A model generated the notes under the pieces. The model was not told the origin of the DNA. It was given only the letters and a program-made list of their open reading frames with translations, and searched no databases. Positions 5,119-59,440 of a stretch of 64,000 nucleotides of DNA are shown here, in pieces. The translations under genes were made by a program, and so were the position numbers. The stretch lies in the NCBI GenBank assembly GCA_025359785.1, contig JANYET010000066.1:124001-188000 (forward strand), written 5' to 3'. This DNA is from Alphaproteobacteria bacterium (GTDB lineage Bacteria > Pseudomonadota > Alphaproteobacteria > Caulobacterales > Caulobacteraceae). Every line of letters starts with the position of its first letter. Positions within the stretch are counted from its first letter, which is position 1.

Positions 5119-5130
5119 GACGCCGCCCGC

Positions 5131-35376: not shown

Positions 35377-35383
35377 GACCCGA

Positions 35384-35389
35384 CTCCTC
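35384..35389 (-). promoter_or_regulatory. Ribosome site deciding a TTG start
   Basis: On the minus strand GAGGAG is followed by seven bases and then TTG, the proposed start of the quinohemoprotein dehydrogenase. The predicted protein then opens directly with a signal peptide. No ATG or GTG in the right frame lies close by. Confidence 0.65.
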
Positions 35390-35468
35390 AGTTTGACGAT
35401 GCGGCGTGACCGTGACGCTCGGCCGGCCACAACGCCAGAGCCTCTACGGCGATGGCCTTCGCGCGGTT

Positions 35469-38404: not shown

Positions 38405-38411
38405 CTTGTAA

Positions 38412-38426
38412 AGGTAACCGGTGTCA
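38412..38426. promoter_or_regulatory. Predicted LacI-family operator, uxaA/lacI gap
   Basis: AGGTAACCGGTGTCA, eight bases before the uxaA start codon and about 70 before lacI. The same 15-mer occurs exactly, in both orientations, in the uxaC control region 3.4 kb away. The position in the uxaA leader suits repression by roadblock or by blocking initiation, and could also autoregulate lacI. Confidence 0.75.
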
Positions 38427-38495
38427 TGCATTCGGCCTATACCCTTCGCCATGCCTGCGGCTATGAAGCCCTGAGCCAAACAGGACAGGATCGGA

Positions 38496-39575: not shown

Positions 39576-40870
39576 ACCTTCACCGGTTCCATCTTCGGCG
39601 ACAGCAGGTGTACCGCCAGCAGCGCCAGCAGATAGACCGAGGCCGCCACCACGAAGATGGGGGTGTAGACGCCGATCTTGTCGAGGACGTAGCCGGCGTA
39701 CTTGGCCATCGCCATGCCGCCGATGGCCCCGATCATCCCGCCGATGCCGACCACCGAGCCCACCGCCGAGCGGGGAAAGACGTCGCCGGGCAGGGTGTAG
39801 AGCGTGGCGGAGAAGCCCTGGTGCGCGGCCGTCGCGACGCCGATGATGCCGACCGCCAGCCACAGGTTCGAGGCGTGCGCCGCGAAGGCCACCGGCAAGG
39901 CCAGCAGGGCGCAGATCAGCATGGTGGTCTTGCGCGCCCGGTTGATCGACCAGCCCATCTTGATGAACCGCGACGACAGCCAGCCGCCGCCGATGCTGCC
40001 CACGTCGCTCAGCAGATAGACCGCCACCACCGGCGGGCCGAAGGTCTTGAGGTCCAGGTGGTAGCGCTTGCCGAAGAAGTCCGGCAGCCAGAACAGCCAC
40101 ATCCACCAGACCGGATCGATCAGGAACTTGGCGATCGCGTAGGCCCAGGTCTCCCGCGTCTTCAGCAGCACCGACCACGGCACCTTGACGACCGTGTCGG
40201 CGGGATCGCTCTCGATATGCGCCAGTTCGGCGGCGCCTAGCTTCTGGTGCTCGCGTGGCGTGCGGTAGACAATGAGCCAGATCGGCAGCCAGAGCAGTCC
40301 CACCGCGCCGGTCACCACGAAGGCCGCCCGCCAGCCCCAGGCCAGCGTGATCATCGGGATCACCAGCGGGGTGACGATGGCGCCGATATTGGTGCCGGCA
40401 TTGAACAGGCCGGTGGCGAAGGCGCGCTCCTTCTTGGGGAACCACTGGGCCATGGCCTTGATACCGCCAGGGAACGCCCCGCCTTCGCCGACCCCCAGCA
40501 GCAACCGCCCGCCGATGAAGCCCGCCAGCGATGAGGCCAGTGCATGCGACATGTGGGCGACCTGCCAGATCAGATAGGCGACGCCGAAGCCCCAGCGGGC
40601 GCCGATCCGGTCCACGATCCGCCCGAAGGCCAGGTAGGAGACCGCGTAGGTCGCTTGGAACCAGAAGACCAGGTCGGCATAGTTGGTCTCGTCCCAGCCG
40701 AACGCCTTGGACAGGTCGCCCTTCAGAAAGCTGATCGTCTGACGGTCGACGTAGTTGAAGACCATGGCGGTAAACAGCAGGGCCACGACGACCCAGCGGT
40801 AACGGCCCATGGCGGCTGGCTTCAGCGCGTCAGCCAAGTCCCGCTTAGGCGGAATTGCCGCGTTGGTCAT
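39572..40870 (-). CDS. exuT: MFS hexuronate transporter (ExuT-like)
   Basis: This 432-residue major facilitator has twelve predicted membrane segments and the anion:cation symporter pattern WVVVALLFTAMVFNYVDRQT at the start, then GGFIGGRLLLGVGEGG-like text near residue 115. ExuT and its relatives import galacturonate and glucuronate with protons. Genomic context with uxaC, uxuB and kduID supports a hexuronate substrate. The start lies 26 bases inside the 3' end of the FAH-fold gene, so the two are co-translated. It converges on lacI with a shared CTAG. Confidence 0.88.
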   Translation of the reverse strand: MTNAAIPPKRDLADALKPAAMGRYRWVVVALLFTAMVFNYVDRQTISFLKGDLSKAFGWDETNYADLVFWFQATYAVSYLAFGRIVDRIGARWGFGVAYLIWQVAHMSHALASSLAGFIGGRLLLGVGEGGAFPGGIKAMAQWFPKKERAFATGLFNAGTNIGAIVTPLVIPMITLAWGWRAAFVVTGAVGLLWLPIWLIVYRTPREHQKLGAAELAHIESDPADTVVKVPWSVLLKTRETWAYAIAKFLIDPVWWMWLFWLPDFFGKRYHLDLKTFGPPVVAVYLLSDVGSIGGGWLSSRFIKMGWSINRARKTTMLICALLALPVAFAAHASNLWLAVGIIGVATAAHQGFSATLYTLPGDVFPRSAVGSVVGIGGMIGAIGGMAMAKYAGYVLDKIGVYTPIFVVAASVYLLALLAVHLLSPKMEPVKV

Positions 40871-41714
40871 GGTCCGATCCTCCCGGGCCCTCCGCCGGCT
40901 GGGCGGGCCGCGCGATACAGCGGATCTCGTCCAGGTCGCCGAAGGTGATGCGGGCCGTTTGTCCGGCCTCGATGTCGTGGATGCCGCTGGCCGCGCCGGT
41001 GGTCACCAGCTGGCCGCGTTTCAGGGGCCGGCCGCGCGCGGCGACGGCGTTCATCAGGAAGGCCAGCGACGCCGCCGGCCCGCCGGGCAGCGACGAGGGC
41101 GCGCCGCGCCCCACCAGCTGGCCGTTCACGTAGGATGCGCAGGGCGGCCAGTCGTCGGTGCGGCGGCGCCAGTCGGGAATCGTCCGCCCCAGGATCAGGC
41201 CGGCGTTGTTGCCGAAGTCGGCGGCCACCACCCGGGGACCCAGGATATTGATGCTGGCCAGCGGGCTTCCGGCGAACTCGACGCCCACCAGCTCATCCTC
41301 GACCAGGGCCAATGCGTCGGCCGCCGTCCAGTCGGTCTTGCTTGGCGGTGCGTCCTCGCCCATGCGGTAGATGTACTCCGCTTCCACGGCGGCGAAACCG
41401 CCGGCGATCGCGAAGACCGGCGTGGGCTCAGGTCCCGCCTGGACAACATTGGCGGCGAACACCGGACCCATCACCCGCTCGGCGGCGAGGCTGGCCTGCA
41501 GTTCGGTCGAGATGCGACCCACCTTCCACCCCGCGACCTGATCGGGCCACAGGCCGATGGCGGCCTCCTGGATGCGGTAGCCGGTGGCCATGTCGGCTGG
41601 GATCGCGCCTGGAAACCCGGCGAGCGAACGCGCCGCCCGGCGCGCGCTCACGAAGCGGCGCGCCACCTCGGATGGGGCCAGGGCCGTCGCGGTATCCGGC
41701 CGGATTTCGCTCAC
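40845..41714 (-). CDS. FAH-superfamily hydratase (2-keto-4-pentenoate hydratase-like)
   Basis: This 289-residue protein has the fold of 2-keto-4-pentenoate hydratases: GYRIQEAAIGLWPDQVAGWK near residue 45, then AVEAEYIYRM with the metal-binding Glu pair and LVTTGAASGIHDIEAGQ. Members dehydrate, hydrate or cleave 2-keto acids. In sugar-acid loci, relatives process 2-keto-3-deoxy acids, so an alternative route from a deoxy-keto sugar is possible. The GTG at 41714 was chosen, with GAGG about 12 bases upstream; the longer ATG frame runs into the divergent operators. Confidence 0.8.
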   Translation of the reverse strand: MSEIRPDTATALAPSEVARRFVSARRAARSLAGFPGAIPADMATGYRIQEAAIGLWPDQVAGWKVGRISTELQASLAAERVMGPVFAANVVQAGPEPTPVFAIAGGFAAVEAEYIYRMGEDAPPSKTDWTAADALALVEDELVGVEFAGSPLASINILGPRVVAADFGNNAGLILGRTIPDWRRRTDDWPPCASYVNGQLVGRGAPSSLPGGPAASLAFLMNAVAARGRPLKRGQLVTTGAASGIHDIEAGQTARITFGDLDEIRCIARPAQPAEGPGGSDHDQRGNSA

Positions 41715-41804
41715 CCGGACGCCGCCTCGCGGGCGTCGCAAGCGGTCATCCAGAGGTTGGTTTCGGTATAAATCGAGGTCACGATGGCCGGACATTGGGC
41801 GATT

Positions 41805-41819
41805 AGGTAACCGGTGTCA
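41805..41819. promoter_or_regulatory. Predicted LacI-family operator 1, uxaC control region
   Basis: AGGTAACCGGTGTCA, identical to the site before uxaA. On the minus strand it overlaps a TTGACA (41816-41821) that could be the -35 element of the hydratase/transporter operon. It is paired with an inverted identical copy at 41862. Confidence 0.75.
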
Positions 41820-41861
41820 ATTTGCCCGATACGTTCGCCGACAAGACTTGCCAGCCTATCA

Positions 41862-41876
41862 TGACACCGGTTACCT
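41862..41876. promoter_or_regulatory. Predicted LacI-family operator 2, uxaC control region
   Basis: TGACACCGGTTACCT is the exact reverse complement of the site at 41805. The two centres are 57 bases apart. A possible uxaC promoter (TTCGCC, 17 bases, TATCAT at 41857-41862) ends at the edge of this site, so binding would block it. Confidence 0.75.
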
Positions 41877-41918: not shown

Positions 41919-43379
41919 ATGTCGCGACCGCTTAGCCTCAATGCCGATCGGCTGTTCCCGGCGGACGCGAGCGTCCGCGGCGTGGCGCGTCGGCTGTACG
42001 CCGAGGTGGCCGGCCTGCCGATCATCAGTCCGCACGGCCACACCGATCCGGAGTGGTTCGCGACCGACGCGCCGTTCGCCGACGCGACCAGCCTGCTGCT
42101 GGCCCCTGACCACTATCTCTACCGCATGCTCTACAGCGCCGGCGTGCCGATGGAGGCGCTGGGGGTGCCCACCCGCAAGGGCGCGAGCGCCGCCGATCCG
42201 CGCGCGGCGTGGCGGCTGTTCGCCAGCCACCAGCACCTGTTCCGCGGCACGCCGTCGGCCCTGTGGCTGAACCACGTCTTCGCGGCGGTCTTCGCCTTTG
42301 AGGTGGTCCTGGAGGCGTCGACCGCCGATCTCTATTTCGACCGCATCGGCGAGAGGCTGGCGACGCCGGACTTCCGGCCCCGCGCCCTGTTTGATCGGTT
42401 CAACATCGAGCTGCTAGCCACCACGGAGAGCCCCACCGACGACCTCGCCCATCACAAGGCGATCCGCGAGAGCGGCTGGGCGAAGACCTCCAAAGGTCGC
42501 GTGGTCACCGCCTATCGCCCGGACCCGGTGATCGATCCGGAGCACGAGGACTTCTGGGTCTCGCTGGAGACGTTCGCCAACCTGAGCGGCCAGGACGTCT
42601 CCTTCTGGTCCGGCTACCTGGAGGCCCACCGCGTTCGCCGCCGCGCCTTCATCGCGGCCGGCGCCACGTCCACCGACCACGGCCACCCGAGCGCGGCCAC
42701 CGCCGACCTGGCGCCTGCCGACGCCGAGGCGCTCTATCACCGCATCCTGGATGGCGTACGCTCCAAGGAAGACGCCGAACTGTTCCGCGCCCAGATGCTG
42801 ACCGAGATGGCGCGGATGAGCCTGGACGACGGCCTCGTCATGCAGATTCACCCGGGCTCGTTCCGCAACCACAACGCTCGCCTGTTCCGGACCTTCGGCC
42901 GCGACAAGGGCGCCGACATTCCTCAGCCGACGGACTATGTCCGCGCATTGAAGCCGCTGCTCGACCGCTTTGGCGGCGAGCCGGACCTGACGATCATCCT
43001 CTTCACCCTCGACGAAACCGCCTACAGCCGTGAGCTCGCGCCCCTGGCCGGCCACTATCCGGCGCTGAAGCTCGGCCCCGCCTGGTGGTTCCACGACAGC
43101 CCCGAGGGGATGCGCCGGTTCCGCGAACAGACCACGGAGACCGCGGGCTTCTACAACACCGTCGGCTTCAACGATGACACTCGGGCCTTTCTGTCGATCC
43201 CCGCGCGCCATGACGTTGCCAGGCGGGTGGATTGCGGCTTCCTCGCGCGCCTCGTCGCCGAGCATCGCCTGGACGAAACCGAGGCCGCCGAGGTGGCGGT
43301 CGACCTTGCGTACAACCTGCCCAAGCGGGCCTACAAACTGGATGCGGACACGCCCTTGCCCTCGTGGGCGAGCGCGTAA
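41919..43379 (+). CDS. uxaC: Glucuronate isomerase (uronate isomerase)
   Basis: This 486-residue amidohydrolase-fold enzyme has the metal-binding HGH at residues 39-41 ([11 protein letters not shown]). Family features include [25 protein letters not shown] and the C-terminal [11 protein letters not shown]. It converts glucuronate to fructuronate and galacturonate to tagaturonate, the entry step of the pathway. The length fits UxaC. It opens the plus-strand uxaC-kduI-kduD operon downstream of paired operators. Confidence 0.94.
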
Positions 43380-43383
43380 CCGC

Positions 43384-43390
43384 GGGAGGA
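43384..43390 (+). promoter_or_regulatory. Ribosome site deciding a GTG start of kduI
   Basis: GGGAGGA stands six bases before GTG at 43397. The resulting protein begins at the conserved N-terminus of KduI, so this start is preferred to longer in-frame options that lie inside uxaC. Confidence 0.7.
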
Positions 43391-43396
43391 AAGCCG

Positions 43397-44233
43397 GTGT
43401 TCAAGAAGACCTATCACGCCACCCATCCGGACATGATGGACGGCGCCACCAACGACCAGCTCCGCGACCGCCACCTGATCGGCGGCCTGTTCGTGGCGGG
43501 CGAGGTGGTGCTGAACTACTCGCACAATGAACGTTTCGTGGTCGGCGGGGCCGCGCCCGGCAAGACCCCGCTGAAGCTGCCCGACCAGACCGAGCCTGCC
43601 TCGGCCGCCGGCCATCCATTCCTGGAACGCCGCGAACTGGGGATCGTCAATGTCTCCGACGGCCCCGGAAAGGTCACTGTCGATGGTACGGCCTACACGC
43701 TGGCGTCCCGCGACTGCCTCTATGTGCCGATGGGCTCCAAGGCGGTGATCTTCGAAGGCGAGGGCGCGCGGTTCTATCTGGTCTCGACGCCGGCTCACGC
43801 GGCCTTTGAGGTGAAGCAGATATCCATCGCCCAGGCCGTGCCGTTGGAGCGCGGGTCGCTGGAGCAGTCCAACGAGCGGACGATCTATCAGCTCGTGGTG
43901 CCGGCCACCTGCAAGTCGGCCCAACTTCTCCTTGGTCTGACCATCCTCAACACCGGCAGTGTCTGGAACACCATGCCGCCGCACCTGCATGACCGGCGCT
44001 CGGAGGTCTATTTCTACTTCGGCCTGAAAGAGGACGAGCGGGTCTTCCACTTCATGGGCGAGCCCGACGCGCAGCGGCACATCGTGATGGCCAACGAAGA
44101 GGCGGTGATGTCGCCGCCCTGGTCGATCCACATGGGCTCGGGGACGTCCAACTACGCCTTCATCTGGGCCATGGGCGGCGAGAACCTCGACTACACCGAC
44201 ATGACCGTCCTCGACATCTGCCAGCTCAAATGA
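43397..44233 (+). CDS. kduI: 5-keto-4-deoxyuronate isomerase (5-dehydro-4-deoxy-D-glucuronate isomerase)
   Basis: This 278-residue cupin isomerises 5-keto-4-deoxyuronate (from unsaturated uronates) to 2,5-diketo-3-deoxygluconate. The zinc ligands of Escherichia coli KduI (H196, H198, E203, H245) are conserved at the same residue numbers here, in [10 protein letters not shown] and WSIHMGSG. It begins 18 bases after uxaC and overlaps kduD as ATGA. Its presence shows that the locus handles unsaturated uronates made by polysaccharide lyases. Confidence 0.95.
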
Positions 44234-44976
44234 ACGGCCTCTTCGACCTTACCGGCAAGACCGCGCTGGTCACCGGGGCCAACACGGGGCTGGGCCAGGC
44301 CATCGCCGTCGGCCTGGCCGGCGCCGGGGCCGACATCGTGGCCGTCGGTCGCAGCGCCCCGGACGAGACCGCCGCGATGGTGTCCGCCTTGGGCCGCAAG
44401 CTCACCGCCATCGCCGCCGACCTGGGCTCGACCGAGCCGATCGCCCGCGTAATGGCGGAAGCTGGGTCCATCGATATCCTGGTCAACAACGCCGGCATCA
44501 TCCGCCGGGACGATTCCACCGCGTTCAGCGAGGACGACTGGGACGCGGTGATGGACACCAACCTGAAGGTGGCCTTCTTCCTCAGCCAGGCCGTCGCCAA
44601 GGCCTGGATCGGCGCCGGCCGCGGCGGCAAGATCATCCAGGTCGCCTCGATGCTGTCCTTCCAGGGTGGCGTCAGGGTGCCCTCCTATACCGCCTCGAAG
44701 AGCGGGCTCGCCGGCCTCACCAAGGCGCTGGCCAACGAATGGGCGGGCAAGGGGATCAACGTCAACGCCATCGCGCCCGGCTATTTCGTAACCAACAACA
44801 CCACCGCGCTACGCGCCGACGAGACCCGCAGCCGCCAGATCATGGAGCGCATCCCGGCCGGCCGCTGGGGCACGCCCGACGACCTTGCCGGGGTCGCCGT
44901 CTTCCTGGCCAGCCGGGCTTCCGACTACATGCACGGCGCCATTGTTCCGGTGGACGGCGGCTGGCTGGCGCGCTGA
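44230..44976 (+). CDS. kduD: 2-keto-3-deoxygluconate dehydrogenase, SDR family
   Basis: This 248-residue short-chain dehydrogenase has the cofactor motif TGANTGLGQ and NNAGIIRRD. The active-site Tyr and Lys are in YTASKSG, and the C-terminal [13 protein letters not shown] is diagnostic. It reduces 2,5-diketo-3-deoxygluconate to KDG. Coupling to kduI by a four-base overlap makes the assignment secure among similar dehydrogenases. Confidence 0.93.
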
Positions 44977-48887: not shown

Positions 48888-50471
48888 CTAGGTCCCCGCC
48901 TGAACGAACGGGACCTTCTCGAAGAGCCGGCGCTCGGCGCCGCGGGGATCGTCGACGAGGCGCGGCGGGGCGTCGAAGATCATCGTCTGCCGGCGCGCCA
49001 GGCCATAGGGCTCCCAGCGCGGGATCGCCTTGCAATTGGGATCACCGGTGCGGGCGAAGGCGAGGAAGGCCTCGCTCATGGCGTCGGCCATGGGTTGGGC
49101 GGTCGGCCCGATTGCGTTGGAGCCCGAGGCGGCGACGTTGTCGAACGCCAACGGGATGTCGGCCATGTGCGGCGCGCCGAACCGGCCGGCCTCGCGCGGG
49201 CTCACCCAGTCGACCTGGTAGACCCAGGCGGGCGTTCCGGCCCTGGCGCGTTCTTCCGCTTCGATGATCGCCGCGCGCCAGGACCGCGCGGCCGTGGTCG
49301 CGGCGAACAGCACGTCGCTGGCGCCATAGGCCGGGTATAGCCGCCGGTACTCGGCAATCACCGTGGCCGGATCGATGTCGACACGCATATTGGCCTGGGT
49401 GAGCTTGGCCGGCAGCCCTGCCCAGTCGACGGTGAAGTTGCTCGCGTCGACCCCCAGGAAGGCGCGGGTCTCGTCGTGAGTGTTGCCGATGATCATCGGA
49501 ATCTTCGCCGACTGGGAGGGCGCGTCCGGATAGAACGGGTGACGGGTCAGGCTGCGTTCGTCCAGCACCGGACCGAAGTAGAGGCCGCCGAAGCCCAGCA
49601 CCGGGTCCAGCGCGGTCTGCGCCTCCACCAGCCGGTCGATCGGCAGCGTACGCACGAGCGACGCCTGTTCGGGCTTCAGCTTCAGCGCGTCGAGCCAGGC
49701 CAGGGTCCGCCGTGTCGCGTTGCCGGGACCAGACGCCGTGACCTGCTGGCCGCTCATGGTCGCGGCGCGCTGGAAGAGCCCCTTGGCGGCCGGCGTCGCC
49801 ATCAGGGTGGCGACCTTCGCGCCGCCGCCGGATTGGCCGAAGACCATGACCTTGCCCGGGTCGCCGCCGAACGCGGCGATATTGTCGGCCACCCAGCGGA
49901 GCGCGAGGATCAGGTCGAGCTGGCCTGCGTTGCCGCTGTCCGCCAGCTCCGGGACCAGGCGCGCCAGATAGGCGTAGCCGAAGGCGTTCAGCCGGTGGTT
50001 CAGGGTGACCACCACCACGTCGCCGCGCCGCGCCAGCCGCGCCCCGTCACAGAGCGGCGACGAGCCCGAGCCGGTCGAATAGGCGCCGCCGTGGATGTAG
50101 ACCATCACCGGGCGCCGGGCGCCGTCCCGCAGGCCCGGCGTCCAGAGGTTGAGATGTAGGCAATCCTCGCTGGTTGCCTCGCCGCCGCCGCGGCTCTGTG
50201 GCGAGGCGGGGCCATAGGCCAGAGCCTCGCGCGCCTCGGTCCAGGGTTCAGGCGGAACCGGCGCCTGGAAACGCCGAGCACCGGTGTCGGCGCCGTAGGG
50301 CACGCCCTTGAAGACGTTGATCCCCGCCTCGGTCGTGCCGCGCACCGGGCCGTGCCGCGTCTGGGCGACCGGCGACGTCGCCGCGCCCGCGCGTCCGGCC
50401 GAGAGCAGCAGGCCCGCGCCCAAGCCCACACCGAGGCCCGCCAGCACGGATCGCCGCTCGAAACCGCTCAT
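48888..50471 (-). CDS. Type-B carboxylesterase, exported
   Basis: This 527-residue esterase has a Tat-type signal (RRSVLAGLGVGLGAG, cleaved near residue 30). The catalytic Ser is in FGQSGGGAKV, the Glu in NTHDETRAF, and a probable His in FGAPHMADIPLAFDN. EDCLHLNLWTP is the family landmark. It hydrolyses carboxylic esters, perhaps acyl or feruloyl groups on plant polysaccharide given the locus. The ATG at 50471 overlaps the stop of the next upstream esterase gene as ATGA. Confidence 0.9.
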   Translation of the reverse strand: MSGFERRSVLAGLGVGLGAGLLLSAGRAGAATSPVAQTRHGPVRGTTEAGINVFKGVPYGADTGARRFQAPVPPEPWTEAREALAYGPASPQSRGGGEATSEDCLHLNLWTPGLRDGARRPVMVYIHGGAYSTGSGSSPLCDGARLARRGDVVVVTLNHRLNAFGYAYLARLVPELADSGNAGQLDLILALRWVADNIAAFGGDPGKVMVFGQSGGGAKVATLMATPAAKGLFQRAATMSGQQVTASGPGNATRRTLAWLDALKLKPEQASLVRTLPIDRLVEAQTALDPVLGFGGLYFGPVLDERSLTRHPFYPDAPSQSAKIPMIIGNTHDETRAFLGVDASNFTVDWAGLPAKLTQANMRVDIDPATVIAEYRRLYPAYGASDVLFAATTAARSWRAAIIEAEERARAGTPAWVYQVDWVSPREAGRFGAPHMADIPLAFDNVAASGSNAIGPTAQPMADAMSEAFLAFARTGDPNCKAIPRWEPYGLARRQTMIFDAPPRLVDDPRGAERRLFEKVPFVQAGT

Positions 50472-51436
50472 GCCGACCGCCCCATGAAGCCGCGTCGCGC
50501 CGCCCAGGCCAGGAACAGGTCCGGCCATACGGCGGCCGGTTTGCCGCGCGCCAGGCCGATGCCGAAGCCGTGCCCGCCCTCTTCAAAGAGGTGCGCCTCG
50601 GCCGGGACCTTCGCGGCTCTCAGCGCGGCCAGGTAGTTCAGGCTGTTCTCCGTCGGCGCCGAGCCGTCATCCCAGGCATGGACCAGGAAGGTCGGCGGCG
50701 TGCGCCCGTCCACATGCCGATGCGGCGAATAGGCGGCCTCGGCGCCCGGCTCCGGCGGCTTGCCAAGCAGGGCCTCGCGGCTGCCCAGGTGCGCGAACGG
50801 TCGGGCCATGTCGATCACCGGATACATCAGGGCGGAGAGGTCCGGCCGCGCCTCCAGCCGGTCGGCGGCGTCGATGGCGTCGTAGACCGTCGCGCCGTAG
50901 CGCGTGGCGAGCGAGGCCGCGACGTGCCCGCCCGCCGAAAAGCCCATAGCGCAGATCCGCTTGGGATCGACGCCCCAGTCGCCGGCGCGGGCGCGGATCA
51001 GGCGGATGGCCCGCTGCGCGTCCTGCAACGGCACGTCGGCCTGGCGGTCCCAGCCCTCGGCGGGCAGGCGGTAGCGCAGGACGAACGCGGTGACGCCCAC
51101 GGCCGCCAGCCGGTGGCCGACCTCGAAGCCCTCCTTGTCGATCACCACGCGGATATAGCCGCCGCCGTGTGCGATCAGCACGGCCGCGCCATTGGGTTTG
51201 GCCGGCCGGAACACAGTCATCAGCGGCGCGCCGATGCCGGTCACGAACCGGTCCTGGAAGCCGGAGGTCGCGCGCCGGTCGACGATCTGTTCGCGCGGGA
51301 CGATCCGCTGGGCGCCCGGCGGCTTGCCCGGCCAGAGCGCGACGATCTCGGTCGGGTCGGGCGGCGGCGCGGCGATCGCGGGGGTCGCGGCGGCGGCCGC
51401 GGCGAGGCCGAAGAGGGCGCGGCGATCCAGCGACAT
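50468..51436 (-). CDS. Alpha/beta-hydrolase esterase (acetylxylan-esterase-like), exported
   Basis: This 322-residue protein has a Tat-like signal (DRRALFGLAAAAAA, ending PAIA). It has the HGGG oxyanion motif (IAHGGGYIR), the nucleophile in GFSAGGHVAAS, the acid in HAWDDGSAP and His in GGHGFGIG. The layout fits the BD-FAE/acetylxylan-esterase-like group that deacylates plant polysaccharide. A predicted uronate operator lies 27 bases upstream of its ATG at 51436. It heads the two-esterase operon. Confidence 0.87.
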   Translation of the reverse strand: MSLDRRALFGLAAAAAATPAIAAPPPDPTEIVALWPGKPPGAQRIVPREQIVDRRATSGFQDRFVTGIGAPLMTVFRPAKPNGAAVLIAHGGGYIRVVIDKEGFEVGHRLAAVGVTAFVLRYRLPAEGWDRQADVPLQDAQRAIRLIRARAGDWGVDPKRICAMGFSAGGHVAASLATRYGATVYDAIDAADRLEARPDLSALMYPVIDMARPFAHLGSREALLGKPPEPGAEAAYSPHRHVDGRTPPTFLVHAWDDGSAPTENSLNYLAALRAAKVPAEAHLFEEGGHGFGIGLARGKPAAVWPDLFLAWAARRGFMGRSA

Positions 51437-51462
51437 GACCTGGAATTCCCTGGAGGACAGTA

Positions 51463-51477
51463 TGACACCGGTAGCAT
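51463..51477. promoter_or_regulatory. Predicted LacI-family operator, esterase/DUF885 gap
   Basis: TGACACCGGTAGCAT lies in the 70-base gap between the divergent esterase operon and the DUF885 gene. It keeps the full TGACACCGGT core and differs in the other half-site. It puts the esterases, the DUF885 gene, or both in the uronate regulon. Confidence 0.65.
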
Positions 51478-51506
51478 TCGACATTTCGGCTCGCTAGCGT
51501 GGCGTG

Positions 51507-52535
51507 ATGCCCAGCCGCAGAACCTTCCTGACGACCGGCCTGAGCGCGCTTGCCGCACCGGCGCTCGCGGCCTCCGGCGCCGAGTATCGAGCGGTGCTGA
51601 GCGGGGCCTATGGCGCGCCGCTCGATCCCCTGGCGGCGCATCGGCGCGCGCTCAGCGCGACCGCCACGCTGCAAGCGCGGGCCGGCGTCCTGCTGCACGG
51701 CCAGGGCCTAAGGACCGGTAGCGTCGCGGAGCGGCTGCGGCGCCTCGCCAAGGATCCGCGCTGGCTCTACCCGGCCGATGAAGCCGGCCGTGACCGCGCC
51801 GTCGCCGACATGAACGGCCGCATCGCCGCGCTGCGGCCCCGGCTTGATCGGGTCTTCGCTGGGGTGGCGATCGCGCCCGCCGCGGTCCAGAGAATGCCGC
51901 TCGCCGACGTCACGGCCGGGCGGGGCGGCTACCGCGAGGCGCCTCAAATCCGCGATCAGGGCGGCTACAAGCCCGGCGCCTACTATCTCGACCTCCACGC
52001 CATCCGCGAACGCCCGATCTGGACGCTGCCCAGCGCCGCCTTCCACGAGGTCACCCCCGGCCATCTGCTGCAGCTTCCCCTGCAGGCCGCCGCCAGTCCT
52101 CCGCCCGATCGAGTCAAGGCGTCGGGCGCCTATTTCGAGGCCTGGGGGATCTACGCCGAACAGCTCGCAGCCGACCTCGGCGCCTATGCGCAAGATCCCC
52201 GTGGCGAGATCGGCTACCTGCAATGGTGCCTCTTCCGCCTCGGCCGCATCGTCGCCGACACCGGGCTGCACGCCCTGGGTTGGAGCCGCGACCAGGCCAT
52301 CGCCGCGATGACCGACCTGCAGGGCCAGTCCGTCGCCTTCATCACCATCGAGGCCGATGTCGACCGGATCGCCGCGACCCCGGGAAAGTACGCCGCCGAA
52401 GGGTTGGGCGCCCTGGCGCTGGCCGCCTGGCGGCCTGCCGATCGTACCCAGTGGCCGGCGTTCCATCGCGCGGTCCTGGCTGACGGGCCGTGGCCGTTCG
52501 GGGAGCTGGAGCAGCGGGTTCGGAACCCCGCCTAG
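51507..52535 (+). CDS. Short DUF885-family protein, exported
   Basis: This 342-residue protein has a Tat signal (SRRTFLTTGLSALAAPALA). The DUF885 landmarks are present: QGGYKPGAYY, the metalloprotease-like HEVTPGH at 180-186, and SGAYFEAWGIYAEQLAADLG. DUF885 proteins are normally close to 550-600 residues; here the region before the HExxPGH motif is about 200 residues short. No frameshifted remnant was found upstream, so it may be a natural short form. Its stop overlaps the LamG protein stop on the other strand in a CTAG. Confidence 0.75.
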   Translation: MPSRRTFLTTGLSALAAPALAASGAEYRAVLSGAYGAPLDPLAAHRRALSATATLQARAGVLLHGQGLRTGSVAERLRRLAKDPRWLYPADEAGRDRAVADMNGRIAALRPRLDRVFAGVAIAPAAVQRMPLADVTAGRGGYREAPQIRDQGGYKPGAYYLDLHAIRERPIWTLPSAAFHEVTPGHLLQLPLQAAASPPPDRVKASGAYFEAWGIYAEQLAADLGAYAQDPRGEIGYLQWCLFRLGRIVADTGLHALGWSRDQAIAAMTDLQGQSVAFITIEADVDRIAATPGKYAAEGLGALALAAWRPADRTQWPAFHRAVLADGPWPFGELEQRVRNPA

Positions 52536-55500
52536 GGCAGAGGGACCGCGTTGTTTAGCTGCGTGATCTCGCGCACGCCGTCCGGCAGAGCCACTCGAAC
52601 CCGCGCGCCCTTGGCCGCGAATCCGACCGGCAGGGTCATCTTCACGACGACCGTCTTCGGCTTCAGGTCGCGAGGCGCCTTGAGAGCCGGCGCCGGCGCG
52701 CTGACCGCCACCTTGCCGGCCGCGCTTTCCACCCAGACCTTGCCGGCTGGCGCGTCGAGGGCGCCGAGGCTGTGGACGGTCACCGACACTGTCCGCCCCA
52801 CGACCTTCACGTCGCCAGGACCGATGCCCAGGTCGGCCCGCAGCTCGGTCGGCGGCCCGGCCTTGGCGAGGTCGAAGGTCAGCACCGTCGTCCCGTGTGC
52901 GGCGAACTCGACGTCCACGGATGAACTCTTCTCCAGTGGCACGGTGCTGGCGACCGGGGCGTCCGCCACGTCGCCGCCACGCGCCGAGACGCCCGAGGTC
53001 ATCCTCCAGTCGCCGGCGGTGATATTCCAACCGGTCATGGCCGCGCGCACCGGCCGGTCGGCGGTGTTGTAGGCGATCACCTTGAAGTGGGTCGGCGTCG
53101 CGCCCGGCATCAGGATCGCCACCTGCTCGGGGGCCTCCGGCCGGTCGAACCGCCAGGAGACCGTCGCGCCCGGCCAGATCCAGTTGCGCTTGAGGGCCAC
53201 GCCACCGAGCCGCGAGCGTTGCAGGAGCTCGGAGGCAATCTCCACCCGGTCGCTCCACCAGTGGCCCTCGGTCATCATGTACATGTGCTGGTTGGCGGTG
53301 CGGATTTCGTCGCCGTAGAGCGCCTCCAGATGCGCCTTGTCGCCGTCTGCCTGCCAGGCGAGGTAGCGGTCGAAGTTCGACGCGCCAGCCCCCGAGCCGC
53401 GCTTCACCGCCTCGTCGGCCCAGGCCTCGCGCTTGCCAAGCCCGTCCAGCAGGTTCTCGTTGAACTCGGCGATCGCCCGGGTGCCGCCCCTGGCCTCGCC
53501 AGCCAGGATCGGCGCCAGATATCTGGCGTCCCCGGTGAGCCGCCAGGCGCCCCAGATCAACTGCATGGCCGGCGTGTTGATTGGCAGGACACCCTTGGTC
53601 GCATCCGTTCGCCAGTTGATCTCGTCAGGCAGGCTCATGTCGGCCTTGGCGTGCGCCAGCAGGCCATCGGCCAGGCCCACGACGTATTTCTTCGCCGTCG
53701 GATCGCCATTGAAATCGGCCATCAGCAGGCCTGGATGCAGCACCAGGACCGACTGGTCCTTCTGCCATTCCCACGGCCCTTCGCTGAACAGCCTGGCGCC
53801 CGAAAACCAGTTGGTCTTGAAGTGCAGATGGCCGGCGGCGTTTGGCTGGATGATCCGCCCGTAGGCGGCCACGGTGCTCATCAGCCGCTCGACGACCTTT
53901 GGGTCGCCCCAGCCGATGTACATGGCTTCCGAGTTGGAGTTGATGCCCTCCTCATAGGAGTGCAACTCGTCGGTCATGATGGTCGACAGGCCGTTCGTGA
54001 ACATGCCGTTCTTGTAGGCCGCGTCGGCGAGCGCGGTGTGCGAGACGCGGATGCGGTCCGGCTCCACGCCCATCAGCGCCAGACCGGGCCATTGCTCGAG
54101 CAGGTCGGTGTCGTCGGAGATGCCGCCGCCGAAGTCGCCATAGGCCACCTGGCGATTGTCGATCCACCAGCCGACGAAGCGGTGGACCAGCTTCAGGTCC
54201 TCCAGCTGGCGGAAGGCCCAGAGCGGCGTGCCGGCCGGCGGCTCGGCCTGCGTGAAGGGCAGGGCGCCTTGGCTGTTGAACGCGATATCGGCCCAGTACT
54301 CGCGGCCGATCCGGTTGTCCGGATCGACCCGCAGCAGGTCGGTGGCGTCGGCGACCACGCGCTCGTAGAGCGCCTCGCGCTTGGACGCGGTGTGCTCCTC
54401 CACCAGGAAGCCCCAGTTGTCCTTCACCTGGTTCAGCCGGTCGGCGACGTGCTCCGGCAAGCCCGCCGCGCGGTCCTTGAACACCAGCCTGATCTTCGCC
54501 CCATCGAGCTGGCCGGCATCGAAGTCCGCGCCGGCGCCGGCGATGGTCAGGTAGAGGCTCTTGTTGGGCAGGATGCGGTCGCGGGTGTCGAGCCAGACGG
54601 TGCGCGCCTCGCCCGGCTTCACGGCGATGGAGACGTCCAGCAGGTTCCGCATCGGCCAGGTCGGGTCCTTGACCTGGATGTTCAGCGGGAAGGTTTCGCC
54701 GTGGGTGGGCTTCACCCTCAGGGCCGGGATGTCGATGGCGATGCCGTCCAGCGCATCGTGCATGTTCTCCCAGCCATAGCCGAAGGACCGATAGAGCGGC
54801 TCGGCCGGCGGCGAGGCCCCGACCTCGTAGGGGATGAGGATGTGTACCAGGGGCAGCTTCGCGCTCTTGTCGGGCGTGCGCGGGCGCATCGGCGCGCCAT
54901 CCGGAAGCGCGGTGACCGTGCTGCGCTCCTCCGGCGGATAGCGGCCGGCGATGAAGCTGTTGAGGTCGGCGATGTCGGGTGAGTCCGGCGCCGCGGCGGC
55001 ATGGATCACGTAGCTGAGCTTCGCGGTCCCGCGGGGCTCCGCGCCCGCGCCCAGGTTATAGGCGGCGATTTCCTGGATCGGCGTTTCCTGGGCGAGGTTG
55101 GTGAAGGTGAGCGTCCCGCCAGTGCGGTCCTCCGTGAACTGATGAACGGTGCGCTCCTGGCCCTGGGCGCGCGTGGCGAGCTTGGCCTCCGGGCCGTCCG
55201 CCGCCCTCCAGCTCAGGTCGCCATAGGCCGCGCCCTGAATCTCGATGTGGTTCCACGGCTCCTTCGGCAACGTCAGCACCAACTGCTTGCCGCCCTCGAC
55301 ATAGGTGTTCCAGTCCGGCAGCTCGAAATAGTCGTCGCGGCCGGGCAGGCGGGAGCGGTTGTAGACGCCGGGCCAGGTGGTCTCGGCGATCCCGTCGGTT
55401 GCCTTCCACATCCATTGCTTCAGGTCGCGCGCATCGGCGAACTCGACCTTGCGGATGCGGGTGACCGGCGCGGTCAGCAGCGGCGGCGCTTCGCCCGGCC

Positions 55501-56320
55501 GGTTCCAGCCGTAGCGCAGCCACCATTCGTCGCGGACGCTCTGAGCGGCGAGGTCGCGGGGCTCGGCTGAGGCCGCGGTCTGCTCGGCCCTGGCGAGCGC
55601 GGCGATGGCCGGCGCGGGGAGCGAATGGTCGTAGATGCGCAGTTCGTCATAGTCGCCACCGCGCAGGAAGTTGTAGCGGCTCTGCACCTGGTGCGGCGAG
55701 ACCGCCCGGCTGGTCGGACCGAACTGGTCGAGGCCCGAATCGTAGACCGCCACCGCAGCCTGCTTGGCCGCCAGCTTGCCGTCCACATAGAGCGCGACGC
55801 CGCGCGTCTCGTCCCAGGTGAAGGCGAGGTGAGTCCAGGCGTCCGGCCCAGGACGCCTCGGGACTTTGAACGAGACGCGGGTGCGGGCCAGGTTGTTGTC
55901 GGTGACAAAGGCGTCGAAGCCCGCGCCATTCCAGTCGATCCGGAGCCAGGCCATGTCCCAGCTCGAGTGGTCGGCATAGCCCACCCGGAACAGCGGAAAG
56001 GGCGCCTCGCCGACCGGATAGCGGCTGCGCCAGAAGAAGGAGAGCGTCCCGCTCTGGGCGTAGATGTTGCCGGCCGCCTTCCAGGACAGCACGACGTCGT
56101 CGGCGGCCGACAGCGCGCCGCCCTGGCGGCCATCCGCCACCATTGCGACCTTGTCGGCGAAGTTGGGGACCGGATCGCCACCGGCCACCTCGGCGGTGAG
56201 CCCCCTGTCGGCCGACATCCGGAACAGCAGACCCGGTTCGGCCGCTTGTCCGGCGCCGGCCAGAACCAGGCCCGCGGTGGCCGCGAGCAGCACGAAACGA
56301 CGATGGCGGTCCTGGCGCAC
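52532..56320 (-). CDS. Large exported LamG-domain protein of unknown function
   Basis: The product has 1262 residues. A signal peptide (1-27, ending AGQAA) precedes a LamG/concanavalin-like domain at about 30-245 (DYDELRIYDHSLP at its end). A second beta-rich domain lies near 285-445. A helical region at about 640-1035 has an acidic stretch YGDFGGGISDDTD (727-739) and a conserved-looking MTEGHWWSDRVE (1016-1027). The end (1040-1262) is beta-sandwich-like. Order and composition suggest a six-hairpin enzyme such as a polysaccharide lyase or glycosidase. I do not recognise a named family. Three uronate operators separate it from the receptor gene. Confidence 0.75.
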   Translation of the reverse strand: MRQDRHRRFVLLAATAGLVLAGAGQAAEPGLLFRMSADRGLTAEVAGGDPVPNFADKVAMVADGRQGGALSAADDVVLSWKAAGNIYAQSGTLSFFWRSRYPVGEAPFPLFRVGYADHSSWDMAWLRIDWNGAGFDAFVTDNNLARTRVSFKVPRRPGPDAWTHLAFTWDETRGVALYVDGKLAAKQAAVAVYDSGLDQFGPTSRAVSPHQVQSRYNFLRGGDYDELRIYDHSLPAPAIAALARAEQTAASAEPRDLAAQSVRDEWWLRYGWNRPGEAPPLLTAPVTRIRKVEFADARDLKQWMWKATDGIAETTWPGVYNRSRLPGRDDYFELPDWNTYVEGGKQLVLTLPKEPWNHIEIQGAAYGDLSWRAADGPEAKLATRAQGQERTVHQFTEDRTGGTLTFTNLAQETPIQEIAAYNLGAGAEPRGTAKLSYVIHAAAAPDSPDIADLNSFIAGRYPPEERSTVTALPDGAPMRPRTPDKSAKLPLVHILIPYEVGASPPAEPLYRSFGYGWENMHDALDGIAIDIPALRVKPTHGETFPLNIQVKDPTWPMRNLLDVSIAVKPGEARTVWLDTRDRILPNKSLYLTIAGAGADFDAGQLDGAKIRLVFKDRAAGLPEHVADRLNQVKDNWGFLVEEHTASKREALYERVVADATDLLRVDPDNRIGREYWADIAFNSQGALPFTQAEPPAGTPLWAFRQLEDLKLVHRFVGWWIDNRQVAYGDFGGGISDDTDLLEQWPGLALMGVEPDRIRVSHTALADAAYKNGMFTNGLSTIMTDELHSYEEGINSNSEAMYIGWGDPKVVERLMSTVAAYGRIIQPNAAGHLHFKTNWFSGARLFSEGPWEWQKDQSVLVLHPGLLMADFNGDPTAKKYVVGLADGLLAHAKADMSLPDEINWRTDATKGVLPINTPAMQLIWGAWRLTGDARYLAPILAGEARGGTRAIAEFNENLLDGLGKREAWADEAVKRGSGAGASNFDRYLAWQADGDKAHLEALYGDEIRTANQHMYMMTEGHWWSDRVEIASELLQRSRLGGVALKRNWIWPGATVSWRFDRPEAPEQVAILMPGATPTHFKVIAYNTADRPVRAAMTGWNITAGDWRMTSGVSARGGDVADAPVASTVPLEKSSSVDVEFAAHGTTVLTFDLAKAGPPTELRADLGIGPGDVKVVGRTVSVTVHSLGALDAPAGKVWVESAAGKVAVSAPAPALKAPRDLKPKTVVVKMTLPVGFAAKGARVRVALPDGVREITQLNNAVPLP

Positions 56321-56384: not shown

Positions 56385-56399
56385 TGACACCGGTGGCAA
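56385..56399. promoter_or_regulatory. Predicted LacI-family operator 1, LamG/receptor gap
   Basis: TGACACCGGTGGCAA, 65 bases upstream of the LamG protein start. The left half-site is complete and the right differs by one base from the palindrome. Confidence 0.65.
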
Positions 56400-56463
56400 T
56401 AAATTCCGCGCAGTGTCCGGCGGGGGCTTGCGGGCCCCACTAAACCATGGCTTATTCGCCGTT

Positions 56464-56476
56464 GCTACCGGTGTCA
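56464..56476. promoter_or_regulatory. Predicted LacI-family operator 2, LamG/receptor gap
   Basis: GCTACCGGTGTCA (the reverse-orientation core). Its centre is about 23 bases from the next site, roughly two helical turns, so two dimers could bind on the same face. Confidence 0.65.
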
Positions 56477-56486
56477 TGCCTTGTTT

Positions 56487-56500
56487 TGACACCGGTGTCA
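56487..56500. promoter_or_regulatory. Predicted LacI-family operator 3, perfect palindrome
   Basis: TGACACCGGTGTCA is a perfect 14-base palindrome and the strongest site in the window. It is followed by TATATAGG, a possible -10 element of the receptor gene with TTGTTT (56481-56486) as -35, so the site would lie in the promoter spacer. Binding would be expected to repress. Confidence 0.78.
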
Positions 56501-56584
56501 TATATAGGATGCGAGCAGCGTCAAGCTTCGCGGACCGGTCGGCTTCGTATCGACTGGCTGCGGCTCGCGAGGGAGGGAAAGACC

Positions 56585-59440
56585 ATGTTTCGCCAAGGAA
56601 CCAACGCGTCCGGCCACCGGCTGCTGAACAGCGCCTCGCTCGCCGCGATCGCCTGCGCCACTGCCACGGGCGTCGCGCTCTGGGCCGCCGCCGCCCCCGC
56701 GGCTGACGCGCCGAAGCAGGTCGAGGAGATCGTCGTCACCGGCTTCCGCGGCAGCCTCGAACAGGCCCTGCAGCTCAAGAAGACCTCGCCGGTCTCCGCC
56801 GACTCGATCCTGGCCGAGGACATCGGCAAGTTCCCCGACCTGAACCTCTCCGAATCGATCCAGCGCATCCCCGGCGTCGCCCTGCAGCGCGACGCCGGCG
56901 AAGGGCGCGAAATCTCGATCCGCGGTCTCGGCCCCCAATTCACCCGCGTCCGGATCAACGGGATGGAGGCGCTCTCCACGACCGGGACCTCCGACGCCAA
57001 CGGCGGCGTCAACCGCGGCCGGGCCTTCGACTTCAACGTCTTCGCCTCGGACCTCTTCAACTCGATCACCGTCAACAAGACCGCGCAGGCCTCCACCGAA
57101 GAAGGCTCGCTGGGCGCGACCGTCGACCTGAAGACCGCGCATCCCTTCGACTACAAGGGCTTGACCTTCGTGGTCTCTGGCCAGGAAGGCTACAACGACC
57201 TCTCCAAGAAATATAATCCGCGCGGCGCCATCCTGTTCGCCAACCAGACGGCGGACGGAACCTGGGGCGGCCTCGTCTCGGTGGCCTACAGCCGGCGCGA
57301 CACCAAGGATGTCGGGACCTCGACCGTGCGCTGGGCGACAGGCAGCGCGTTCGCGCCAGGCTTCCGCTCGGTCCTGCCGACCGCCGGCGTCACGCTCGCC
57401 CAGGCCAACGCCGCCTACCACCCGCGCTTCCCGCGCTTCGACGACTACACCGACCATGCCGAGCGTCTGGGGGCCACCGGTTCGATCCAGTGGTCGCCGG
57501 ACAAGAACACGGTCGTCACCTTCGACGCGCTCTACGCGGACTTCAAGGCGACCCGTGAGGAGCGCTACCTCGAGGCGCCGTCGTTCAGTGTCTCCGGCGC
57601 CTGCACCGCGGCTACCACCGCCAGCGGCGCCTGCGGTATCGCTCAGACCGACGTGGTCTCCGCGACCATCGATCCGGCGAACACCCTGAGCAAGGGCGCG
57701 TTCAACAACGTCGACCTGCGCGTCGAAGACCGCTTCGACAAGCTGGACACCAAGTTCACCCAGTTCACGCTGGCCGGCGAGCACACCTTCAACGACCGGT
57801 GGAAAGCCGACTTCGTGGTCGGTCACGCCAAGTCGGATTTCACCAACCCGATCCAGACCACGCTGACCTTCGACCAGTATAATGTGCAGGGCTACGCCTA
57901 CGACTACACCCAAGGCCGCGTTCCGCTCCTGAGCTACGGCAGCGCCAACCTGACGAGCCCGGCGGCCTGGACCCTCACCCAGATCCGCGAGCGGCCGCAG
58001 ACCGCGCTCAACACCTACGATAACGGCCAGGTGAACCTCTATTTCACCCCCTTCGAGGCGGTGAGGGTCTCGGGCGGCCTGGACTTCAAGAAATACGAAT
58101 ATGTCACCACCGAGCGCCGCCGCACGATCGGGACGACGGCCAACCAGGAAGCGGTCATCCCGGCCGGCGTCGCGGCCATTCCGCTGTCCAGCTATTCCAC
58201 GGTCACGACGCTCAATACCCAGGGCCTCGACGCACCGGCCGGCACGGCGGTCAACTGGCTCGCGCCGAACCTCAACCTGGCCAACAGCCTGCTCAGCCTC
58301 TACGATCCGACCGCCTTCAACGGAGCCTTCCGCCTGGGTCCCGAGCCGGCGCTCGGCAACAACAATTCGGTCCGCGAAAAGGATACCGGCGGCTACCTCC
58401 AGGCCGACTGGCATACCCAGATCGGGAACATCCCGTTCCGCGGCAATGTCGGCGTCCGCTACATCAAGACCGACGAGACCGCCTCAGGCTTCAGCTTCCT
58501 CGCCGGCGCGCCGGTGGCGATCACCGCCAGCCGGAAATATTCCGACACCCTGCCGTCGATCAACATGGTGCTGGAGCCGGTCGAGAACTTCCTGATCCGC
58601 TTCGCCGCGGCCAAGGTCATGGCGCGCCCGAACCTTGGCGGCCTGACCCCCAGCGTCACGGTCAGCGTCTCCGGCGCCAGCCACACAGTGACCGCCGGCA
58701 ACCCGAACCTCGATCCGTTCCGGGCGAAGGCCTACGACCTCTCCTTCGAGTGGTACTTCCAGCGTGGCTCGCTGATCTCGCTGGCGCTGTTCCGCAAGGA
58801 CATCGACAGCTTCGTGCAGACCAAGCAGCAGAGCGCGGTCTTCCACAACAACGCCTTCGGGATCCCCGACAGCGTGGCCGTGGCCGCCTGCGGAACCCTG
58901 GTCGGCTGCGACACCACCTCGACCCAGTGGACCTTCACCGTGCCGGTCAACACGCCCGGTGGCCCGGTCGACGGCTTCGAGATCAACTACCAGCAGGCCT
59001 TCACCGCCCTGCCGGGCCTGCTCGCCCATACCGGGGTGCTGTTGAACTACACCCACGTCAAATCCTCGATCGACTACGTGAACGGGGCCGGCGTGGTCGT
59101 GGCGACCAACGACCTCACTGGCCTGTCGCGCAGCTCCTACAACGCCACGGTCTATTATGAGGACGACAGGATCTCGACCCGCGTTTCGGCCGCCCATCGA
59201 TCGAAGTACCTGACCCGCGTGCCCGGCCAGGAGGCCGGCACCGACGTCGACGGCACGAACGGGACTTTCAACCTCGACGCCTCGTTCCAATACACCTGGA
59301 ACCAGCACCTGAAATTCACCCTGGAAGGCATCAACCTGACCGACCAGTTCCAGGATCAGTTCAACGACAGCTCAAACCGCGTGAGCTTCTACCACCACAC
59401 CGGCCGGGAGTTCCTGCTGGGCTTCCGCTACAGCTACTAG
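56585..59440 (+). CDS. TonB-dependent receptor
   Basis: This 951-residue outer-membrane receptor has a signal peptide ending AAPAADAPK. The TonB-box-like VEEIVVTGFRGS is followed by a plug domain (DLNLSESIQRIPGVALQRDAG and EISIRGLGPQFTRVRING). A 22-strand-type barrel follows, ending GREFLLGFRYSY with terminal aromatic. The pattern fits the Xanthomonas/Caulobacter carbohydrate-receptor group. It probably imports oligouronides or related oligosaccharides. The ATG at 56585 follows a GGAGGG ribosome site; a longer frame crosses the operators. The TAG stop is supplied by a palindromic element. Confidence 0.94.
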   Translation: MFRQGTNASGHRLLNSASLAAIACATATGVALWAAAAPAADAPKQVEEIVVTGFRGSLEQALQLKKTSPVSADSILAEDIGKFPDLNLSESIQRIPGVALQRDAGEGREISIRGLGPQFTRVRINGMEALSTTGTSDANGGVNRGRAFDFNVFASDLFNSITVNKTAQASTEEGSLGATVDLKTAHPFDYKGLTFVVSGQEGYNDLSKKYNPRGAILFANQTADGTWGGLVSVAYSRRDTKDVGTSTVRWATGSAFAPGFRSVLPTAGVTLAQANAAYHPRFPRFDDYTDHAERLGATGSIQWSPDKNTVVTFDALYADFKATREERYLEAPSFSVSGACTAATTASGACGIAQTDVVSATIDPANTLSKGAFNNVDLRVEDRFDKLDTKFTQFTLAGEHTFNDRWKADFVVGHAKSDFTNPIQTTLTFDQYNVQGYAYDYTQGRVPLLSYGSANLTSPAAWTLTQIRERPQTALNTYDNGQVNLYFTPFEAVRVSGGLDFKKYEYVTTERRRTIGTTANQEAVIPAGVAAIPLSSYSTVTTLNTQGLDAPAGTAVNWLAPNLNLANSLLSLYDPTAFNGAFRLGPEPALGNNNSVREKDTGGYLQADWHTQIGNIPFRGNVGVRYIKTDETASGFSFLAGAPVAITASRKYSDTLPSINMVLEPVENFLIRFAAAKVMARPNLGGLTPSVTVSVSGASHTVTAGNPNLDPFRAKAYDLSFEWYFQRGSLISLALFRKDIDSFVQTKQQSAVFHNNAFGIPDSVAVAACGTLVGCDTTSTQWTFTVPVNTPGGPVDGFEINYQQAFTALPGLLAHTGVLLNYTHVKSSIDYVNGAGVVVATNDLTGLSRSSYNATVYYEDDRISTRVSAAHRSKYLTRVPGQEAGTDVDGTNGTFNLDASFQYTWNQHLKFTLEGINLTDQFQDQFNDSSNRVSFYHHTGREFLLGFRYSY

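Follow-up and report, generated by a model that had tools for sequence, protein, structure and literature searches.

We analyzed a 64,000-nucleotide stretch (the window) of contig JANYET010000066.1 from an alphaproteobacterium of the family Caulobacteraceae (assembly GCA_025359785.1, positions 124,001 to 188,000). It holds a gene for a protein with a LamG domain, here called the LamG protein, which diverges from a TonB-dependent receptor gene and shares the window with genes of uronate catabolism (Table 1). A preliminary description, made from the letters alone, had proposed a new enzyme of uronate polysaccharides, with a domain order seen in lyases. The first half of that interpretation holds up well. 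The LamG protein very probably takes part in the degradation of pectin or galacturonan, because it has operators in common with uronate genes, conserved neighbors in seven genera (Sphingomonas, Novosphingobium, Xanthomonas, Stenotrophomonas, Pseudoxanthomonas, Luteimonas and Phenylobacterium) and a genome that lacks five pectinase-type families. Lyase chemistry is less secure, the nearest toroid folds of known function being those of GH76 and GH88 enzymes, themselves weak matches.

Domains, fold and conserved residues

The open reading frame, as first described, is borne out. It starts with GTG, and its GC content by codon position (0.67/0.49/0.91) fits the expectation for coding DNA of 69% GC. 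Together with the many full-length relatives, this shows that the gene is real: 8000 candidates were scored in a homologue search and 2117 reached E<=1e-3, part of them possibly through LamG alone, while the 120 best relatives listed are 59–99% identical to the LamG protein over 97–100% of its length. Export, also claimed earlier, is suggested by a putative signal peptide read by eye. The LamG domain itself scores 39.8 bits against a Pfam gathering score of 27.6, is present in all 30 aligned sequences, window protein included, and is the sole Laminin_G_3 match in the genome.

Sequence searches assigned nothing else. Pfam recognized LamG alone in the LamG protein and NCBIfam gave no match; over the 30 aligned sequences only Pentaxin, a LamG-like fold, recurs widely besides LamG (21/30, best E 9e-4), and five other families match in just one or two sequences. 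Membership of the helical region in a Pfam or NCBIfam family was accordingly rejected. At E<=1 neither the LamG protein nor the 30 aligned sequences match the Pfam families of GH76, GH88/GH105 (PF07470), PL1, PL10 or PL22. PDB sequence and profile searches returned a LamG match (4qvs, E 0.001) plus noise, and none for the catalytic part. Thus, the absence of a named catalytic family, noted at the outset, holds for Pfam, NCBIfam and PDB sequences. Precomputed Pfam data place CARDB (PF07705) in the C-terminal region of some relatives.

Structural models were built for residues 255–1262 (predicted local distance difference test, pLDDT, 88.5) and 615–1155 (pLDDT 92.3). Both predict the central helical region and the C-terminal β-sandwich of the preliminary description, and the longer one adds a CBM32-like domain between LamG and the helical part that the description had overlooked. 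Within this domain, residues 297–340 (55301–55432) form a conserved TDGI..TTWPGVYNRSRLPGR.DYF.LPDW stretch, as striking as the toroid loops but of low pLDDT in the model built without LamG; it possibly packs against LamG or lines the active site.

The helical region is modeled as an (α/α) toroid. Among solved structures of known function, the closest to it come from GH76 mannanases and from unsaturated glucuronyl hydrolases of family GH88, and all are weak matches. For the GH76 endo-α-1,6-mannanases (e.g. 4d4c), identity is 11%, the Foldseek E-value 2.3e-3 at best and the template modeling (TM) score by query 0.35, with matched chains of ~330–475 residues. GH88 enzymes (3wiw, 1vd5) are 9–10% identical and smaller (371–397 residues). 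Tied with GH76 is 7tkv, an uncharacterized Thioredox_DsbH-domain protein of Brucella abortus (10% identity) with no known carbohydrate job. Foldseek ranked 7xdi first for this domain (E 1.4e-4), a match disregarded for its root-mean-square deviation of 15.2 and TM by query of 0.20. Because hydrolases make up most of the closest folds of known function, the protein could be an exo-hydrolase of saturated galacturonan, resembling GH28 exo-polygalacturonases in action and built on a six-hairpin scaffold; the free galacturonate would be usable by UxaCBA-type genes. However, such an enzyme would not account for the KduI and KduD genes that share its regulon, and we consider it unlikely.

The acidic loop singled out earlier, YGDFGGGISDDTD, lies at residues 727–739 and is strongly conserved. 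In a first set of 31 sequences, the others being 45–61% identical to the window protein and their source names including Acidobacteria and Candidatus Latescibacterota, S735, D736, D737 and D739 are identical in 31/31. Invariant as well are, among others, D784, H787, E790, E811, R812, W850, D885, W1022, D1024, Q1034, R1035 and R1037, with Y789 kept in at least 90%. In a second set (n=27), D784, H787 and E790 are each found in 27/27 and D736, D737 and D739 each in 26/26; R1025, off the 90% list of the first set, is kept in 26/27 and E785 in 23/27, and H1020 is not conserved (8 His, 19 Ser). Since residues of other loops are equally invariant, the acidic loop reads as one member of a set of conserved loops.

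This pattern bears on whether the LamG protein is a depolymerase at all. It might instead be an accessory protein of the cell surface that binds glycans or removes esters; it has LamG and CBM32-like modules, and the esterases of the locus show that de-esterification matters. Yet a toroid of ~440 residues with invariant Asp, His and Glu loops is hard to square with mere binding, and the Pfam search found no esterase domain in it. We give this alternative very little credence.

Shared operators and conserved neighborhoods

The window was scanned for the ACCGGT-centered palindrome TGACACCGGTGTCA at up to three mismatches. It contains 11 sites against 2.17 expected, a number reached in none of 100 shuffles. 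Seven lie at uxaA/lacI, at uxaC-kduI-kduD, at the esterase/DUF885 pair and at the LamG/TonB-receptor pair (Table 1); no genes of these kinds stand at the other four (15238, 15442, 47081 and 61459), each of which has three mismatches. The three sites said to face the receptor gene are therefore confirmed, and the placement of kduI and kduD in the same predicted regulon is supported by operators at both gene groups. At up to two mismatches the genome has 14 sites, four of them in the window, against 4 for the reversed pattern. The 3-kb stretches around genome sites outside the window, compared with seed proteins only, gave no clear uronate gene; nearby are a LacI paralogue (39%), a short-chain dehydrogenase/reductase (31% to KduD) and a DUF885 protein (28%).

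For relatives, 80 loci from named genomes were kept out of 416 confirmed. Their 1.65 Mb hold 86 sites within one mismatch of three motif variants and none for the reversed variants, a count that is partly circular because the variants were picked after some loci had been seen. Outside Xanthomonadaceae, 36 of 45 loci have the motif either at the LamG gene (26 loci) or at the head of its operon (10 loci), including 14/16 Caulobacter loci, all without a marker gene in the stretch covered; in several Xanthomonadaceae loci, sites are near esterase, hydratase or TRAP genes. The reversed control, together with the finding of sites at genes of the uxa and kdu sets and at those for esterases and receptors, speaks for a real uronate/pectin regulon. 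The LacI-family protein of the window is a candidate for reading these operators. Known regulators of galacturonate and glucuronate use in that family are ExuR, KdgR, UxaR and UxuR (PMC4052901).

The same 80 loci were searched within at most 10 kb for KdgK, KDPG aldolase, KduI, KduD, UxaA, UxaB, UxaC, CE8, PL10 and what we take to be CE12 (GDSL by Pfam assignment). Seed proteins came from the window and the loci and were Pfam-checked; some derive from counted loci, and the loci are not independent. At least one marker was found in 52/80 loci (49 at no less than 40% identity), and two or more kinds in 38. Every locus of Xanthomonas (23/23), Stenotrophomonas (8/8), Pseudoxanthomonas (3/3), Luteimonas (1/1) and Phenylobacterium/Caulobacterales (2/2) has one, as do 12/17 of the Sphingomonas group. 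Xanthomonas gene orders are receptor-CE8-PL10-LamG or receptor-LamG, and many Sphingomonas loci show a hydratase-MFS-LamG-DUF885 run. On a Novosphingobium plasmid, annotation gives carboxylesterase, sugar kinase, KduD, KduI, LacI, a hypothetical protein, MFS, GH43 and LamG.

A PL10 gene is directly upstream of the LamG gene in 15/80 loci; this pectate lyase (PF09492) is a neighbor in the same pathway in Xanthomonadaceae, with no sequence match to the LamG protein. In 9/23 Xanthomonas loci (hand count), the receptor gene immediately precedes the LamG gene, and neither CE8 nor PL10 was called between the two. Because such loci exist, the LamG protein looks like the core piece of the system. In Xanthomonas campestris, a pectin locus of the type termed carbohydrate utilization containing TonB-dependent receptor (CUT), XCC0120–XCC0122, encodes a TonB receptor, a pectin methylesterase and a pectate lyase, and receptor XCC0120 is induced specifically by polygalacturonate; the part of the source available mentions no LamG gene there (PMC1790865).

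Could the substrate be another uronate polymer, such as rhamnogalacturonan, glucuronan or an alginate-like chain, its depolymerase having been borrowed into a uronate regulon? KduI, KduD and UxaC serve several uronates, GH43 and GDSL esterases are near some loci, and some relatives have no pectin genes nearby. On the other hand, CE8 and PL10 mark the Xanthomonadaceae loci, and the polygalacturonate-induced receptor of X. campestris points to pectin as well. We regard this as quite improbable.

Caulobacter loci deserve a separate remark: most have a LamG gene with an operator and no pectin gene seen nearby, and in several (e.g. L018, 13702–14196) the LamG gene is followed by a gene for a small, seemingly exported protein of ~165 residues.

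Table 1. Features of the locus, in window coordinates
Feature	Positions	Strand	Basis or remark
Mannitol-dehydrogenase family, fructuronate/tagaturonate-reductase-like (UxaB-like)	35469..36956	-	Below curated cut-off
Altronate/galactarate dehydratase family (UxaA-like)	36932..38638	-	
Operator GGTAACCGGTGTCA	38413..38426		3 mismatches; near divergent uxaA/lacI starts, inside longest uxaA frame
LacI-family regulator	38496..39575	+	
MFS transporter	39572..40870	-	
2-keto-4-pentenoate-hydratase-like protein	40845..41795	-	Weak NCBIfam matches, no Pfam match at 1e-5
Two operators, GGTAACCGGTGTCA and TGACACCGGTTACC	41806..41875		At 41806 and 41862; 3 mismatches each; upstream of uxaC
uxaC	41919..43379	+	NF002794 above NCBIfam curated cut-off
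kduI	43232..44233	+	NF002091 above NCBIfam curated cut-off
kduD	44230..44976	+	TIGR01832 above NCBIfam curated cut-off
Carboxylesterase family protein	48888..50528	-	
BD-FAE type esterase	50468..51484	-	
Operator	51463..51476		2 mismatches; at esterase frame start, before DUF885 gene
DUF885 protein, 343 aa	51504..52535	+	
LamG protein (1262 aa), candidate for a secreted enzyme degrading galacturonan	52532..56320	-	Open reading frame, codon-position GC
C-terminal β-sandwiches, residues ~1054–1262	52535..53161	-	Model
(α/α) toroid, residues ~617–1054, presumed catalytic domain	53159..54472	-	Models, fold matches
DELHSYEEG, residues 784–792	53945..53971	-	D784, H787, E790 invariant; Y789 at least 90%
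YGDFGGGISDDTD acidic loop	54104..54142	-	D736, D737, D739 conserved in all samples aligned
Second β-rich domain, residues ~444–615	54476..54991	-	Model secondary structure
CBM32-like (galactose-binding-like) sandwich, residues ~288–425	55046..55459	-	Fold match, model
LamG (concanavalin-like) domain, residues 89–240	55601..56056	-	PF13385, E 6.3e-10
Putative signal peptide, residues 1–27	56240..56320	-	Translation read by eye
Operator TGACACCGGTGGCA	56385..56398		1 mismatch
TonB-dependent receptor	56447..59440	+	TIGR01782 above cut-off
Operator TGCTACCGGTGTCA	56463..56476		2 mismatches
Operator TGACACCGGTGTCA	56487..56500		Perfect palindrome, 0 mismatches; sole exact match in genome

Several neighbors call for comment. 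The receptor probably starts at a later ATG near 56585, read by eye. The DUF885 gene overlaps the end of the LamG gene by 4 bases; its product aligns just to model positions 214–532 of 532, a Sphingomonas copy (locus L067) has 484 residues, and the DUF885 protein here is possibly shortened. The hydratase-like protein recurs in uronate loci, with 21 labeled copies in the 80. In the flanking region are genes for a GH3 enzyme (61964–63979, -) and a pyrroloquinoline quinone (PQQ)/cytochrome-type dehydrogenase (33451–36156, -); the window scan gave no good operator site at either start.

Chemistry, distribution and proposed role

In its own genome (99.61% complete), the LamG protein is accompanied by no match to GH28, PL1, PL10, PL22 or GH88/105, families whose searches each match 1 to 4 of 14 control genomes. 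KduI and KduD are nevertheless kept in the regulon, both above curated cut-offs, and their substrate requires a lyase somewhere. Their presence without the tested lyases suggests that the LamG protein is itself either a lyase or a GH88-like trimmer. The latter would be a GH88/GH105-like unsaturated galacturonyl hydrolase, which acts by hydration of the 4,5-unsaturated residue at the non-reducing end of an oligogalacturonide made by PL10 or by lyases of neighbors, freeing an unsaturated monomer and a saturated oligomer. GH88 is among the weak fold matches, but GH76 scores equal or exceed those of GH88 and the PF07470 match is absent. Moreover, with the tested lyases absent from the genome, and with none called between receptor and LamG gene in the nine Xanthomonas loci, such a trimmer would need an outside source of unsaturated substrate. 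We hold it possible but doubtful.

Lyase chemistry, that is β-elimination, stands for us at even chances. Polysaccharide lyases of families PL8, PL12, PL15, PL17 and PL21 are (α/α) toroids, and as in these the toroid of the LamG protein is followed by an antiparallel β-sandwich; the gene logic, too, asks for a lyase. We lean to it on that logic, against the fold, which favors a hydrolase. When role and chemistry are taken jointly, a secreted galacturonan depolymerase acting as a lyase falls slightly short of even chances.

A number of observations weigh against this reading. Glycoside hydrolases (GH76, GH88) provide the closest folds of known function. In the fold comparison, which had been proposed as a check, no lyase among the matches listed, from the five PL families or otherwise, matches through its toroid, which excludes nothing; the one lyase entry, 5xnr, matches through its CBM32. 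The pectinase negative covers five families, with PL2, PL3, PL9, PL11 and PL26 not searched, and the genome has one heparinase-II/III-type protein on another contig (contig 18, ~4412–5134). No marker was found within 10 kb or less, some stretches being short, in 28/80 loci: Caulobacter 16/16, Nitrospirillum 2/2, Asticcacaulis 1/1, Rhizomicrobium 1/1, the Sphingomonas group 5/17 and 3/6 outside the named groups. In Xanthomonadaceae, the operator is at the LamG gene or operon head in 0/35 loci. Among three plasmid records with relatives, those of Sphingomonas sp. R1 and Asticcacaulis sp. AND118 have the gene among other genes. Finally, one genome of the genus (G317) has a fragment of the LamG protein and no UxaC match. 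As a separate observation, the heparinase-type match, the only one in the genome, is near a gene read by eye as a ribulose-phosphate epimerase.

The family is sparse. Full copies occur in 4/299 and 6/398 Pseudomonadota genomes, own genome included; a fifth match in the first sample is LamG only, and those in the second, with up to three candidates per genome scored, are all very strong, none intermediate. Among 80 genomes of the genus, 4 have the protein (own included, one a fragment) and 17 have UxaC, with 3 shared, a weak co-occurrence (Fisher p 0.029). Source names of relatives also include Opitutus, Nibricoccus, Edaphobacter and Massilia. From this patchy spread with tight conservation, we infer a specific, horizontally moving function. 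Shorter relatives (383–985 residues, an effect of the length filter) were rejected as LamG-free architectures, since related groups hold numerous LamG copies of full length; many are probably fragments. At least 351 distinct predicted proteins match the family, under source names that are just hypothetical, LamG or concanavalin-like, and no report on its function was found in the open literature, subscription papers lying outside this coverage. A 2015 paper on Latescibacteria (PMC4454575) reportedly contains the words pectin and rhamnogalacturonan in its full text, consistent with a wider spread of the family.

We propose that the LamG protein serves as the central secreted depolymerase in a system for homogalacturonan (pectin) utilization and comes from a family unnamed in the libraries searched. 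Removal of esters would expose oligogalacturonides to the toroid. LamG and the CBM32-like module would grip the chain, and the toroid, through its D736/D737/D739, D784/H787/Y789/E790 and W1022/D1024 loops, would cut off uronate residues, most likely by β-elimination as an exo-type lyase. The products, unsaturated and saturated galacturonate, would be imported by the divergently encoded TonB receptor and by the MFS carrier and passed to KduI-KduD and UxaC-UxaB-UxaA. Both routes end in 2-keto-3-deoxygluconate (KDG). A LacI repressor acting on the ACCGGT palindrome would turn on the gene set. In this picture, the gene, its domains and fold, the common operators, the conserved neighbors and the lack of the five families are observed; export, substrate, cleavage, catalytic residues, product and regulator are predictions. 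More tentatively still, the protein may represent a polysaccharide lyase family that is new and has a six-hairpin toroid of GH76/GH88-like type as its scaffold. Such an enzyme would take galacturonan oligomers to the Kdu-pathway substrate unaided and would enable bacteria from several phyla to live on pectin while having none of the classical pectinases tested.

If the LamG protein is a pectin depolymerase, it would define a new enzyme family and fill the missing step in a genome that has KduI and KduD but none of the tested lyases. It would also offer an assayable target with a predicted inducer, regulator and active-site residues.

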